Part shown: in pieces, positions 40,010-49,968 of the stretch
Position numbering within the stretch: the stretch's first letter is position 1
How the letters are laid out: each line of letters starts with the position of its first letter
NCBI RefSeq assembly: GCF_000281895.1
Contig: NZ_CM001558.1
Span: 1,120,556-1,184,555, forward strand
Reading direction: 5' to 3'
From: Pseudomonas fluorescens Q2-87
GTDB lineage: Bacteria > Pseudomonadota > Gammaproteobacteria > Pseudomonadales > Pseudomonadaceae
DNA length: 64,000 bases
The notes under the pieces: model-generated
What the model was told of the DNA's origin: nothing
Databases searched by the model: none
What the model saw: the letters and a program-made list of their open reading frames with translations, nothing else
Position numbers and translations under genes: made by a program

Positions 40010-41416
40010 TCAGCCCGCCTGTTTCATCTGCCGCATCGGCAGTTCCACGCGAAAGGTGGTACCGACACCGACTTCGCTGCGCACGGTGATGTCGCCGTGG
40101 TGTTTTTTCACGATCCCGTAGGACAGCGACAGCCCAAGCCCCGTGCCCTGGCCGACGGGCTTGGTGGTGAAGAATGGGTCGAAGATTTTCTGCAGGGTTT
40201 CCGGCGGGATGCCCGAGCCGTTGTCGGTGACTTCGATCCACACGCTTTCGTCCATCACGCCGTTACGCAAGGTGATGGTGCCGCGCTCCGGGCCGATGGC
40301 CTGGGCGGCGTTGACGATCAGGTTCATGATCACCTGGTTGATCTGCGACGGCAGGCATTCGACTTCCGGCAATGGACTGTATTGCTTGATCACGTCGGCC
40401 TTGTATTTGATTTCATTGGCGACGATGTTCAGCGTCGAATCGATGCCTTGTTGCAGATTGGCCAGCTGCCACTCCTGATTGGAATCGACGCGGGAGAAGT
40501 CCTTCAGGTCCTTGACGATTTGCCCGACCCGGGCGATGCCGTCCTTGGTTTCCTTGATCAGCACCGGAATGTCTTCGACCAGGAAATCCAGTTCCACCTG
40601 GTCGCGCAGCTTTTTGAGCTGCATCACCTGTTCCTGCGAAGCAATGTCTTGCTCGGCACTGCCATAAGCCGTGAGCATTTCCTGGAGCTTGCCGAAGTAG
40701 CCATCCAACGCCCCCAGATTCGAAGAAATGAAGCCGATCGGGTTGTTGATTTCGTGAGCCACGCCGGCCGCCAACTGGCCCAGCGAGGCGAGTTTTTCCG
40801 ACTGCACCAGCTGGCTTTCGAGCATCTTGCGTTCGTCGATTTCCATTTGCAGCAGCTCGCTGGCCTGCTTGAACGCCTGGGTGCGCTGCTCCACCAGGTC
40901 CTCGAGCTTGTTCATCTTCAGGCGGGCCCGGGAGGTCATTTCCCATTTGGTGGTCAGGGTGTTGGCCATCTGCTGGACTTCGATGTTGTCGAAGGGTTTC
41001 TTCAGGATCAGCAACCGATCATGGCCGTTCAGGCGATCGAGCAGTTCGTCCCAGGAATAATCCGAATACGCGGTACAGACCACGACCTGAAGCTGCGGGT
41101 CGTGCTTCCAGAGCTCTTCGATGGTCTTGGCCCCATCCCAGCCTTCGGGCATGCGCATGTCGACGAAGGCCAGGGCATAAGGGCGTCCTTTCGCCGCGGC
41201 TTCCAGCAGTTTCCTCAGGCCTTCCTGGCCGCCGTAGGCCGAATCGAGCTCGAACACCGTGGCGGCAGGCTTCGGCGCATCGCCGAACAATGCGCTTTCC
41301 ATGTCCTGCAAATCGGCGTTGGTTTCATCCTCTGGCGTGAGGATCTTGCGAAAATCGTCATGAATGGCGGGTGTATCGTCGATCAGCAAAATACGGCGGT
41401 TACTCAGGCTATTCAT
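40010..41416 (-). CDS. Hybrid receiver–histidine kinase (last gene of signalling operon)
   Basis: A 468-residue soluble protein with a receiver domain first (~1–155) and a kinase after a coiled coil. The receiver has ILLIDDTPAIHDDFRKIL, phospho-acceptor Asp in AFVDMRMPEGWDG, the Thr in VVCTAYSDYSWD and the Lys in LILKKPFDNIE. The same long receiver, including a ~25-residue insert (DMESALFGDAPKPAATVFEL), occurs in the two GGDEF-EAL genes of this operon. The kinase has a canonical H-box (LAAGVAHEINNPIGFISSNL), N-box NLIVNAAQAI, and G-boxes DNGSGIPPE and GTGLGLSLSYGIV. There is no membrane segment. Its start overlaps the preceding kinase gene by four bases. It could relay phosphate between the membrane kinase and the output regulators. 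Confidence 0.92.
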   Translation of the reverse strand: MNSLSNRRILLIDDTPAIHDDFRKILTPEDETNADLQDMESALFGDAPKPAATVFELDSAYGGQEGLRKLLEAAAKGRPYALAFVDMRMPEGWDGAKTIEELWKHDPQLQVVVCTAYSDYSWDELLDRLNGHDRLLILKKPFDNIEVQQMANTLTTKWEMTSRARLKMNKLEDLVEQRTQAFKQASELLQMEIDERKMLESQLVQSEKLASLGQLAAGVAHEINNPIGFISSNLGALDGYFGKLQEMLTAYGSAEQDIASQEQVMQLKKLRDQVELDFLVEDIPVLIKETKDGIARVGQIVKDLKDFSRVDSNQEWQLANLQQGIDSTLNIVANEIKYKADVIKQYSPLPEVECLPSQINQVIMNLIVNAAQAIGPERGTITLRNGVMDESVWIEVTDNGSGIPPETLQKIFDPFFTTKPVGQGTGLGLSLSYGIVKKHHGDITVRSEVGVGTTFRVELPMRQMKQAG

Positions 41417-48603: not shown

Positions 48604-49968
48604 ATGGAAGATCAGACGCCGGACGTTCCGGTTAATAAGCCCACGGTGTTGTTGGTCGATGATGAAGAGTCGATCCTCAATAGCCTGCGGCGGTTATTGC
48701 GCAGCCAGCCGTATGAAATCCTGTTGGCCGACAGTGGCGCCAAGGCCTTGGAAATCCTCAAGGAACGGCCGGTTGACCTGGTGATGACCGATGCGCGCAT
48801 GCCCAACATGGACGGCGCGACGCTGCTGGCACAGATCCGCAAGCTCTATCCCTCGACGCTGCGCATCCTTCTCACCGGTTACGCCGACGTGGACATGATG
48901 ACCAAGGCCATCAACGAGGGGCAGCTCTATCGCTACCTCAGCAAGCCGTGGAATGACGAGGAACTGGTGCAGGCCCTGCGCCAGGCCCTGGCCCACCAGC
49001 ATTCCGAAAGCGAGCGCCAGCGCCTCGAAGCGCTGAACCGCGAGCAGAACCAGCAACTCAAGACACTGAACGCGACCCTGGAAAAGCGCGTGGCCTCGCG
49101 TACTTCCGAGCTGCAACAGACCGCCGACATGCTCGACCTGGCCTATGACGAGCTCAAGCGCAGCTATGTGACCAGCACCGAAGTGTTCTCATTGATCGCC
49201 AACCTGCGCCTGCCCAAGGCCAAGCAGACCAACCGGCAGATCATCGAGCTGATCAGGGTTTACAGCCGGCTGCATTTCCTCGACGAATCCACCGACCGCG
49301 ACCTGACCATGGCCGCGGCGCTCTACAACATCGGCAAACTGAGCTGGACCGACAACATGATGGTCACGCCTGCCGACATGCTGCATCACAGTGAGCTCGA
49401 TCTGTACCGGGCCTATCCGAAGCAGAGCGAGTCGCTGCTGATGACCCTGGATCCGATGAAAGACGCGGCGCGGATCATCCTGCATCACCAGGAGCGTTGG
49501 GACGGCAGCGGCTTCCCCGATCGCCTCAAGGGCGAGGCTATTCCGTTCGGTTCGCGGCTGCTGAAGCTGGCGGTGGACTTCATCGAACTGCAACGTGGGC
49601 TGATCCTCGAGCGGCAGATGAACAGCGATGAAGCACTGGTCTACATCCGCAACTACGCCGGCAAGCTGTACGACCCTGCCTTGATCGAGGACTTCATCAA
49701 GGCGTGCGGTGAATACCTTGAAGATGTGACCTTGTCCGACCCGATGGTGCAGGTCATGAGCACCCGGGAACTGGAGGCCGGCATGATCCTGGCACGCAAC
49801 CTCAACGCCGACAACGGCATGCTGCTGCTCAATGCCGGCAAGGTCCTGAACGGTCCGCTGGTGGATAAACTCATCGCCTTCGAATCGATGGAAGGAGCCC
49901 GGTACAGCGTGTTCGTCAAGAAGCCGGAGGAAGAAGATCCTTCGGTGCCGAAGCCGATTTTGGGGTGA
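48604..49968 (+). CDS. Receiver–HD-GYP-like regulator with altered catalytic residues
   Basis: A 454-residue protein divergent from the signalling operon. The standard receiver (~1–125) has VLLVDDEESILNSLRRLLRS, acceptor Asp in LVMTDARMPNMDG, LLTGYADVDMM and YLSKPWNDEEL. A coiled coil (~130–185) leads to an HD-GYP-type domain (~190–400). The signature GYP region is HHQERWDGSGFPDRLKGEAI, so GYP is GFP. The HD dyad is lost: the equivalent of LLHDIGKL reads ALYNIGKLSW near residue 240. Without HD the metal site is unlikely to form, so it probably binds rather than cleaves cyclic-di-GMP, or works through protein contact. The C-terminal ~60 residues (RELEAGMILARNLNADNGML) resemble the extension of REC-HD proteins with a fold seen in PilZ-linked regulators; this last point is uncertain. 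Confidence 0.88.
   Translation: MEDQTPDVPVNKPTVLLVDDEESILNSLRRLLRSQPYEILLADSGAKALEILKERPVDLVMTDARMPNMDGATLLAQIRKLYPSTLRILLTGYADVDMMTKAINEGQLYRYLSKPWNDEELVQALRQALAHQHSESERQRLEALNREQNQQLKTLNATLEKRVASRTSELQQTADMLDLAYDELKRSYVTSTEVFSLIANLRLPKAKQTNRQIIELIRVYSRLHFLDESTDRDLTMAAALYNIGKLSWTDNMMVTPADMLHHSELDLYRAYPKQSESLLMTLDPMKDAARIILHHQERWDGSGFPDRLKGEAIPFGSRLLKLAVDFIELQRGLILERQMNSDEALVYIRNYAGKLYDPALIEDFIKACGEYLEDVTLSDPMVQVMSTRELEAGMILARNLNADNGMLLLNAGKVLNGPLVDKLIAFESMEGARYSVFVKKPEEEDPSVPKPILG

Follow-up and report, generated by a model that had tools for sequence, protein, structure and literature searches.

A peroxidase-type di-heme cytochrome encoded beside DAHL receptors across phyla, and its putative phosphorelay in Pseudomonas

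Gene organization of the signalling locus

We analyzed a stretch of 64,000 nucleotides of the Pseudomonas fluorescens Q2-87 genome (contig NZ_CM001558.1, positions 1,120,556 to 1,184,555), called the window below, which harbors a five-gene signalling operon (A to E) and a divergent regulator gene (F). Going by the names of the best matches, the DNA comes from close to the P. brassicacearum/kilonensis/corrugata group. The operon encodes a di-heme cytochrome, two histidine kinases and two proteins with GGDEF and EAL domains, the domains that make and break cyclic di-guanosine monophosphate (c-di-GMP). The features are as follows, in window coordinates.

46085-48376, minus strand: A, REC-PAS-GGDEF-EAL protein, GGDEF intact and EAL degenerate (Pfam)
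44214-46088, minus strand: B, REC-GGDEF-EAL protein, GGDEF degenerate and EAL intact (Pfam)
43212-44171, minus strand: C, periplasmic di-heme cytochrome c peroxidase-type protein, the proposed co-sensor (CCP_MauG)
41413-43215, minus strand: D, membrane histidine kinase with a periplasmic DAHL domain and an HNVGN/HATPase core, HKD type (Pfam)
40010-41416, minus strand: E, soluble REC-HisKA-HATPase kinase, HKE type (Pfam)
48604-49968, plus strand: F, response regulator with REC and a degenerate HD-GYP (YN-GYP) domain, NosR family (NCBIfam NF053512)
46085-46088, minus strand: 4-base overlap of the A stop and B start (open reading frame coordinates)
43212-43215, minus strand: 4-base overlap of the C stop and D start (Met7 of the listed D open reading frame)
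41413-41416, minus strand: 4-base overlap of the D stop and E start (open reading frame coordinates)

The five operon genes are co-directional, with a gap of 42 bases between B and C. F diverges from A across 227 bases and lies outside the operon. The original prediction, made from the letters of the DNA, had described a five-gene operon with a cytochrome and two kinases whose genes overlap by four bases at three junctions, and all of these elements were found in place. The C/D junction depends on the choice of the D start codon. The listed frame begins at 43233, but 55 of 58 aligned relatives have Met at the position of its Met7 (43215), and a start there gives the overlap of 43212-43215. The overlaps suggest translational coupling, but the controlled stoichiometry that had been read from them does not follow from a 4-base overlap. 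A promoter scan of the operon revealed no sigma-70 site, and terminator-like sites occurred only at chance level.

C and D form the constant core of the locus in Pseudomonas

Searches of 149 Pseudomonas genomes with C and D (each at E <= 1e-80) returned each protein in 61 genomes, and the two lists were identical. We examined 58 of the 60 other Pseudomonas loci, leaving out those of G114 and G135. C was followed by a DAHL receptor in 58/58 and flanked by F in 54/58. Both A and B were present in 35 loci (in L054, A is in two pieces), B only in 15, A only in 2 and neither in 6. Gene order is thus conserved outside the strain, and the invariable succession of C and DAHL, with defined gene losses around the pair, indicates that the cluster exceeds chance. 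As 23 of the 58 loci lack A, B or both while the C-DAHL pair is constant, C and D are the core of the locus, and the c-di-GMP maker and breaker form an accessory layer.

The cytochrome-DAHL pair extends across phyla

With C as the only query, searches at class and family level (E <= 1e-85) yielded 48 matches besides C itself, 40 of which were examined (G170 and seven same-genus matches were left out). The gene next downstream carried DAHL in 37 of these 40 loci, the exceptions being L160, L171 and L172. Pfam confirmed the domain in all 35 genes submitted; L174 and L175 were assigned with our own DAHL profile, which was built from these same loci.

We then scanned GTDB species contigs using an alignment of 20 cytochromes, all of them beside DAHL. 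DAHL adjoined the cytochrome in 77 of the best 80 of 572 relatives, a figure that speaks for this part of the family because all cytochromes in the query were DAHL-linked. These best 80 include cyanobacteria (Microseira, Oscillatoria), Gallionella, Zetaproteobacteria, Magnetococcales and Myxococcales, as well as Planctomycetota, Omnitrophota, an Opitutia bacterium and Comamonas testosteroni. Pfam recognized DAHL in 69 of 79 downstream frames as delimited. Among its 10 misses, L245, L308 and L318 also lacked DAHL by our own profile and are the three exceptions, and for L276, L281, L293 and L295 the wrong frame had been taken. The cytochromes of L308 and L318 (Shewanella marina, Photobacterium sanctipauli) have three CxxCH motifs.

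The association was then considered from both sides. CCP_MauG proteins are found in 129 of 229 class genomes (327 proteins), and 15 of 150 listed places, of the 327 in all, lie directly upstream of a DAHL match. None of 20 contrast loci chosen from the best-scoring CCP_MauG rows had DAHL; these loci were hand-picked rather than random, the first 29 rows already being without an adjoining DAHL by coordinates, and 15/150 is the fairer figure. From the other side, PF19443 (DAHL) exceeded its cut-off in 31 of the 229 class genomes, with 37 matches, and a CCP-type cytochrome was encoded directly upstream of 34 of them, the window's own included. Those 34 are made up of 30/30 returned loci (the cytochrome of L188 is in two pieces) and of L166, L169, L235 and L238. 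The others are L106, an orphan kinase of Pseudomonas, and the weak matches L236 and L237. At the phylum level PF19443 passed the cut-off in 48 of 299 genomes, and the cytochrome was present in 29/29 returned loci; this check covers the matches returned with DNA plus G287 (L238), and L206 and L207 are Pseudomonas loci already counted.

Taken together, these counts show that the link is near obligatory from the DAHL side and that it splits one part of the cytochrome family off. The original prediction had rested the cytochrome-kinase link on an overlap in one strain; pairing with DAHL receptors across phyla makes it stronger. In several phylum-level loci outside the class (L219, L222-L227, L229, L233), the cytochrome gene is immediately preceded by a co-directional HD-GYP-like gene.

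Among the listed papers of the open-licence literature, judged by title and abstract start, so that absence is weak evidence, we found no description of the C-DAHL pairing, no cytochrome c peroxidase tied to c-di-GMP or signal transduction, and no ligand for DAHL.

The pair is joined to different outputs

We classified the outputs of 144 cytochrome-DAHL pairs using our own profiles. They comprise 54 histidine kinases, 39 GGDEF-EAL proteins, 21 hybrid histidine kinases, 6 GGDEF proteins and 24 others; DAHL matches shorter than 150 residues are omitted from these counts, and because some frames are cut at locus ends the outputs are partly under-read. Pfam analysis of six of the other outputs identified adenylate/guanylate cyclases (L145, L249, L251), SpoIIE (L243, L287) and MCPsignal (L246) domains. 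In two Gallionella loci, L290 and L278, the outputs differ although the cytochromes have 64% and the DAHL domains 53% of their sequence in common.

A cytochrome tree was built from every second of the 144 pairs (72) and 35 other rows, giving 107 sequences (81 linked to DAHL, 26 unlinked). The DAHL label requires 3 changes on this tree compared with a mean of 23 after shuffling, with bootstrap support not fully settled. In a mirror-tree comparison, cytochrome and DAHL distances correlated with an r of 0.615 (0/999 shuffles), and with an r of 0.35 between pairs with different outputs. This correlation is not used as proof of contact because shared organism history remains in it. By comparison of these sequences, the C-DAHL pair looks like a widespread sensing module to which very different signalling machinery has been attached.

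Features of the cytochrome and of its putative receptor

C matches Pfam CCP_MauG (PF03150) with 186 bits and has the two heme sites of that family in its CxxCH motifs, CASCH and CIACH. It matches bacterial di-heme peroxidases in the Protein Data Bank, its AlphaFold2 model has a predicted local distance difference test score (pLDDT) of 89.6, and it is the sole CCP_MauG protein found in its genome. The periplasmic di-heme peroxidase-type cytochrome overlapping the kinase start was thus correctly recognized in the original prediction. C also has W106, Q116, E126 and M286, residues with known roles in peroxidases. Q116, E126 and M286 are present in most Pseudomonas orthologs, and the CxxCH motifs are almost invariant among the aligned cytochromes.

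E126 behaves differently in distant relatives. It is lost or unaligned in 19 of 72 distant DAHL-linked cytochromes and kept in all 26 unlinked ones, and 70 of the 81 linked cytochromes of the mixed tree subset keep it; as a trait of DAHL-linked cytochromes its loss is suggestive only. The residue counts for distant cytochromes leave out L160, L171 and L172, which are unlinked, and the repeats L241, L242, L174, L175, L206 and L207. The lack of a His at position 83 (His in 0/131) was also considered as a mark of sensor cytochromes, with a register possibly off by one, and was rejected because 25 of the 26 unlinked cytochromes are without His there too.

D matches DAHL (PF19443) with 159.5 bits against a cut-off of 38, and it matches HATPase_c as well. 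Its kinase motif HNVGN is found in 56/56 proteins, this and the motif counts below for A, B, E and F being those of the Pseudomonas orthologs plus the window protein. The model of its DAHL domain (pLDDT 92.3) shows a stacked, all-helical periplasmic fold that resembles the TorS sensor in fold searches, and the top matches also include McpS, whose structure is known in complex with malate or succinate. D74, N135 and H219 (numbered from 43233) are invariant DAHL residues. NCBIfam gave 41 rows for D, and the 25 of them shown do not include TorS. PF19443 was above its cut-off in 0/14 named control genomes, E. coli among them. Of 816 homologs of D, the 120 listed, which are almost all Pseudomonas-like, include no fusion of CCP and DAHL.

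These features bear on two other explanations of the pair. C might be an ordinary periplasmic peroxidase that detoxifies peroxide, DAHL sensing a small molecule and the genes being merely co-expressed for stress. The family match and the retention of Q116, E126 and M286 in most Pseudomonas orthologs would fit such an enzyme, and the resemblance of DAHL to McpS would fit a small ligand. However, the pairing is confined to a single section of the CCP family (15/150 listed places, three changes on the tree), it holds across phyla and output types, and the erosion of E126 is seen in distant linked but not in unlinked cytochromes. We thus regard this explanation as unlikely.

Alternatively, an apo-form of C arising from failed heme or c-type biogenesis might dock onto DAHL and switch D, so that the circuit would report heme or iron supply. 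A precedent exists in TorS, which binds TorT and the apocytochrome TorC and is inhibited by apo-TorC, and both the TorS-like fold of DAHL and the near invariance of the CxxCH motifs are in line with it. Nevertheless, this leaves the choice of a di-heme peroxidase type over other c-type cytochromes unexplained, and we consider it still less probable than mere detoxification. The reading that we favor is a cytochrome whose ligand, redox state or peroxide turnover is read by DAHL. Its input may be peroxide, with redox state, nitric oxide and heme or cytochrome maturation as alternatives.

A and B are degenerate in opposite domains

The motif residues scored in A, B, D, E and F are catalytic in their families. 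In A, the GGDEF motif is intact in 37/37 proteins (RLGGDEFAI in the window protein), together with the metal and GTP motifs of active cyclases. In contrast, its EAL domain lacks the motifs of an active enzyme: the Glu of LEITE is replaced by Asp in 37/37, and the window protein has GVQVRW where EAL is expected (GVQ for EAL) and KLA for KID. Eight of the 33 A proteins shown (37 in all) still have the EAL tripeptide. The reverse is found in B, which in the window has GSDEF and EALVRW. None of 51 B proteins has GGDEF, the first metal Asp is Gly in 51/51 and Ser replaces the Arg of PNR in all 49 rows shown of the 51, such that the decay goes beyond GSDEF and the cyclase motif set is not retained. 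The EAL, EITE, DDFG, KID and AEG motifs, as in active EAL enzymes, are intact in 51/51.

A is thus a predicted diguanylate cyclase that would raise c-di-GMP, and B a predicted phosphodiesterase that would lower it, each through its one intact domain. As judged from these residues, the reciprocal decay of the two proteins is conserved across orthologs, which bears out the claim that one regulator had kept GGDEF and lost EAL whereas the other had kept EAL and carries GSDEF.

The wider circuit drawn from that claim was a peroxide or redox switch serving a dedicated maker and a dedicated breaker of c-di-GMP. An operon with a cytochrome as its likely input and with a predicted cyclase and phosphodiesterase does exist, and the reciprocal decay and the receivers of A and B, which are of the same type as that of E, are in agreement with this view. 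However, the pair of enzymes is not at the core of the system: the Pseudomonas loci with B only, A only or neither keep C and DAHL, F persists in most loci, and elsewhere most relatives of C are joined to other outputs. It is therefore doubtful that the circuit exists for the maker and breaker, and we prefer a relay in which they are two of several outputs.

A two-tier phosphorelay is the simplest reading of the locus

E has the kinase motif HE[IV]NNP and the receiver motif VDMRMP in 53/53 proteins. F matches the NosR family NF053512 with 580 bits (cut-off 400). In 55/55 F proteins the HD motif is replaced by YN or HN, with loss of the metal ligands of active HD-GYP enzymes, and the receiver motif DARMP is retained. 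Phospho-acceptor motifs are retained in the receivers of A, B, E and F. F is probably a phosphorylatable, non-enzymatic YN-GYP response regulator of the NosR family. It had been described as a divergent HD-GYP-like receptor; the degenerate HD-GYP part of that description stands, but the protein fits a response regulator better than a receptor and is encoded outside the operon.

The connections between these proteins were deduced from gene losses, fusions and receiver counts. L078, L101 and L102 encode direct fusions of the DAHL part with an E-type kinase core. These three loci alone have neither a D-type core nor an A/B/E-type receiver, and they retain F. All 55 remaining loci have the D-type core together with at least one A/B/E-type receiver. 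Ten F loci were examined in genomes without C, five with an E-type core beside F and five with F alone, and four of the five E-core/F loci are without an A/B/E-type receiver. The fusion loci, devoid of the D core and of the receivers but not of F, point to phosphotransfer from D to A, B and E, and from E to F, and this is the simplest reading that the gene losses, fusions and receiver counts suggest. A finding in P. aeruginosa weighs against this reading: as reported in PMC3411652, two-hybrid contact was negative between PA2571 and PA2572, a kinase and a regulator resembling E and F in architecture, and it was positive for the chemoreceptor PA2573.

The genome of strain Q2-87 encodes four D-type kinases and three A/B/E-type receivers, those of A, B and E. 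The receivers might then be the hub of several D-type kinases, with the C-D couple as one of about four inputs. In support of this idea, all 21 genomes with more than one match, counted with at most eight candidates scored per genome, fall within the 61 C-positive genomes of the 149. Nevertheless, kinship of the strains may account for the co-occurrence, and the extra kinase L342 bears a receiver of another type. The hub is a tentative proposal that falls somewhat short of even odds, and it is compatible with the relay proposed here.

The additional kinases are as follows. L106 (2955376-2957127 of the same genome) is an orphan: a DAHL kinase that shares 53% identity with D and has no adjoining cytochrome. 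DAHL kinase paralogs of this kind were seen only in C-holding genomes, as if C could act in trans. L341:4023-6068 and L342:2707-6429 are two more kinases with a D-type core and different N-terminal parts, and one of these kinases is a large protein that combines a receiver with two kinase cores. Both are possible extra inputs to the A/B/E receivers. Elsewhere in the window, three consecutive membrane-protein-like frames (36615-36968, 37001-37402 and 37402-38130) resemble pieces of one broken or split gene.

We propose that the operon encodes a two-tier phosphorelay fed by the periplasmic heme co-sensor C acting on D, with a probability of about 0.6. C would dock onto the all-helical DAHL domain of D, which would thereby read the state of the cytochrome (ligand, redox or peroxide turnover), as TorS reads TorT. 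D would then phosphorylate the closely related receivers of A, the cyclase, B, the phosphodiesterase, and E, the second kinase, as comparative genomics suggests. The kinase core of E would control F, whose YN-GYP domain probably acts by protein contact, and A and B would raise and lower c-di-GMP, respectively.

In its broadest form, the proposal is that a peroxidase-type di-heme cytochrome became a soluble periplasmic sensor with DAHL as its dedicated receptor throughout bacteria, on kinases, cyclases, phosphodiesterases, nucleotide cyclases, phosphatases and chemoreceptors, and that in Pseudomonas it drives a one-kinase-type relay over an antagonistic cyclase and phosphodiesterase and a second kinase. 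We hold this general form to be slightly more probable than its opposite. The cross-phylum sensory pair of di-heme cytochrome and DAHL is the most valuable result of this work. If the cytochrome is the partner of DAHL, redox, peroxide or nitric oxide becomes a likely input for many receptors in organisms as different as Pseudomonas, cyanobacteria and iron oxidizers, whether they are kinases, chemoreceptors, nucleotide cyclases or c-di-GMP enzymes. It would also be an example of an enzyme family turned into a signalling ligand, and A, B and E, with one receiver type, would offer a clean model of one kinase setting antagonistic c-di-GMP enzymes.

Comparison with known systems

The TorT-TorS-TorR system of E. 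coli, which responds to trimethylamine N-oxide and includes apo-TorC, resembles the pair described here in that its periplasmic receptor is all-helical, with the fold predicted for DAHL. In that system a periplasmic protein is the immediate ligand and a c-type cytochrome can bind; for C and DAHL the evidence is the adjacency of their genes. TorT is a sensor protein for trimethylamine N-oxide, unlike the peroxidase-type C, and the C-DAHL pair occurs with many output types. Periplasmic proteins also serve VirA, which uses ChvE. The best NCBIfam row for D is the VirA-like sensor kinase family NF010411, which covers residues 19-346 including DAHL, but its 159 bits are far under the cut-off of 647.

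The nitric oxide system NosP-NosK-NosR likewise has a heme co-sensor acting on a kinase and a NosR-family degenerate HD-GYP regulator, and the HEINN motif of NosK is matched by E. However, NosP is a FIST-domain protein whereas C is a c-type cytochrome, and NosK has no recognized sensory domain whereas a membrane DAHL kinase comes first here. No FIST domain gave a Pfam row (E <= 0.1) in the six cluster proteins A to F, so that no NosP was found beside the kinase, genes further off being unscanned. In L324, L326, L327 and L333, which belong to genomes without C, an E-type core without an A/B/E-type receiver adjoins an F homolog in a NosK-NosR-like arrangement. The adjacent REC-histidine kinase PA2571 and YN-GYP regulator PA2572 of P. 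aeruginosa are E/F-like by architecture, and PA2572 is described in PMC3411652 as being without detectable phosphodiesterase activity.

C shares its Pfam family, two CxxCH motifs and conserved Trp and Met residues with CcpR and its relatives, MauG and MbnH being more distant. It differs from CcpR-type peroxidases in belonging to a DAHL-tied part of the family, in which distant members do not always keep E126. Finally, the c-type heme Cache sensors (PMC12889525, whose main text makes no mention of DAHL) also use covalent c-type heme for extracytoplasmic sensing. Their heme lies within the sensor domain itself, whereas here it is carried by a separate, peroxidase-type protein.

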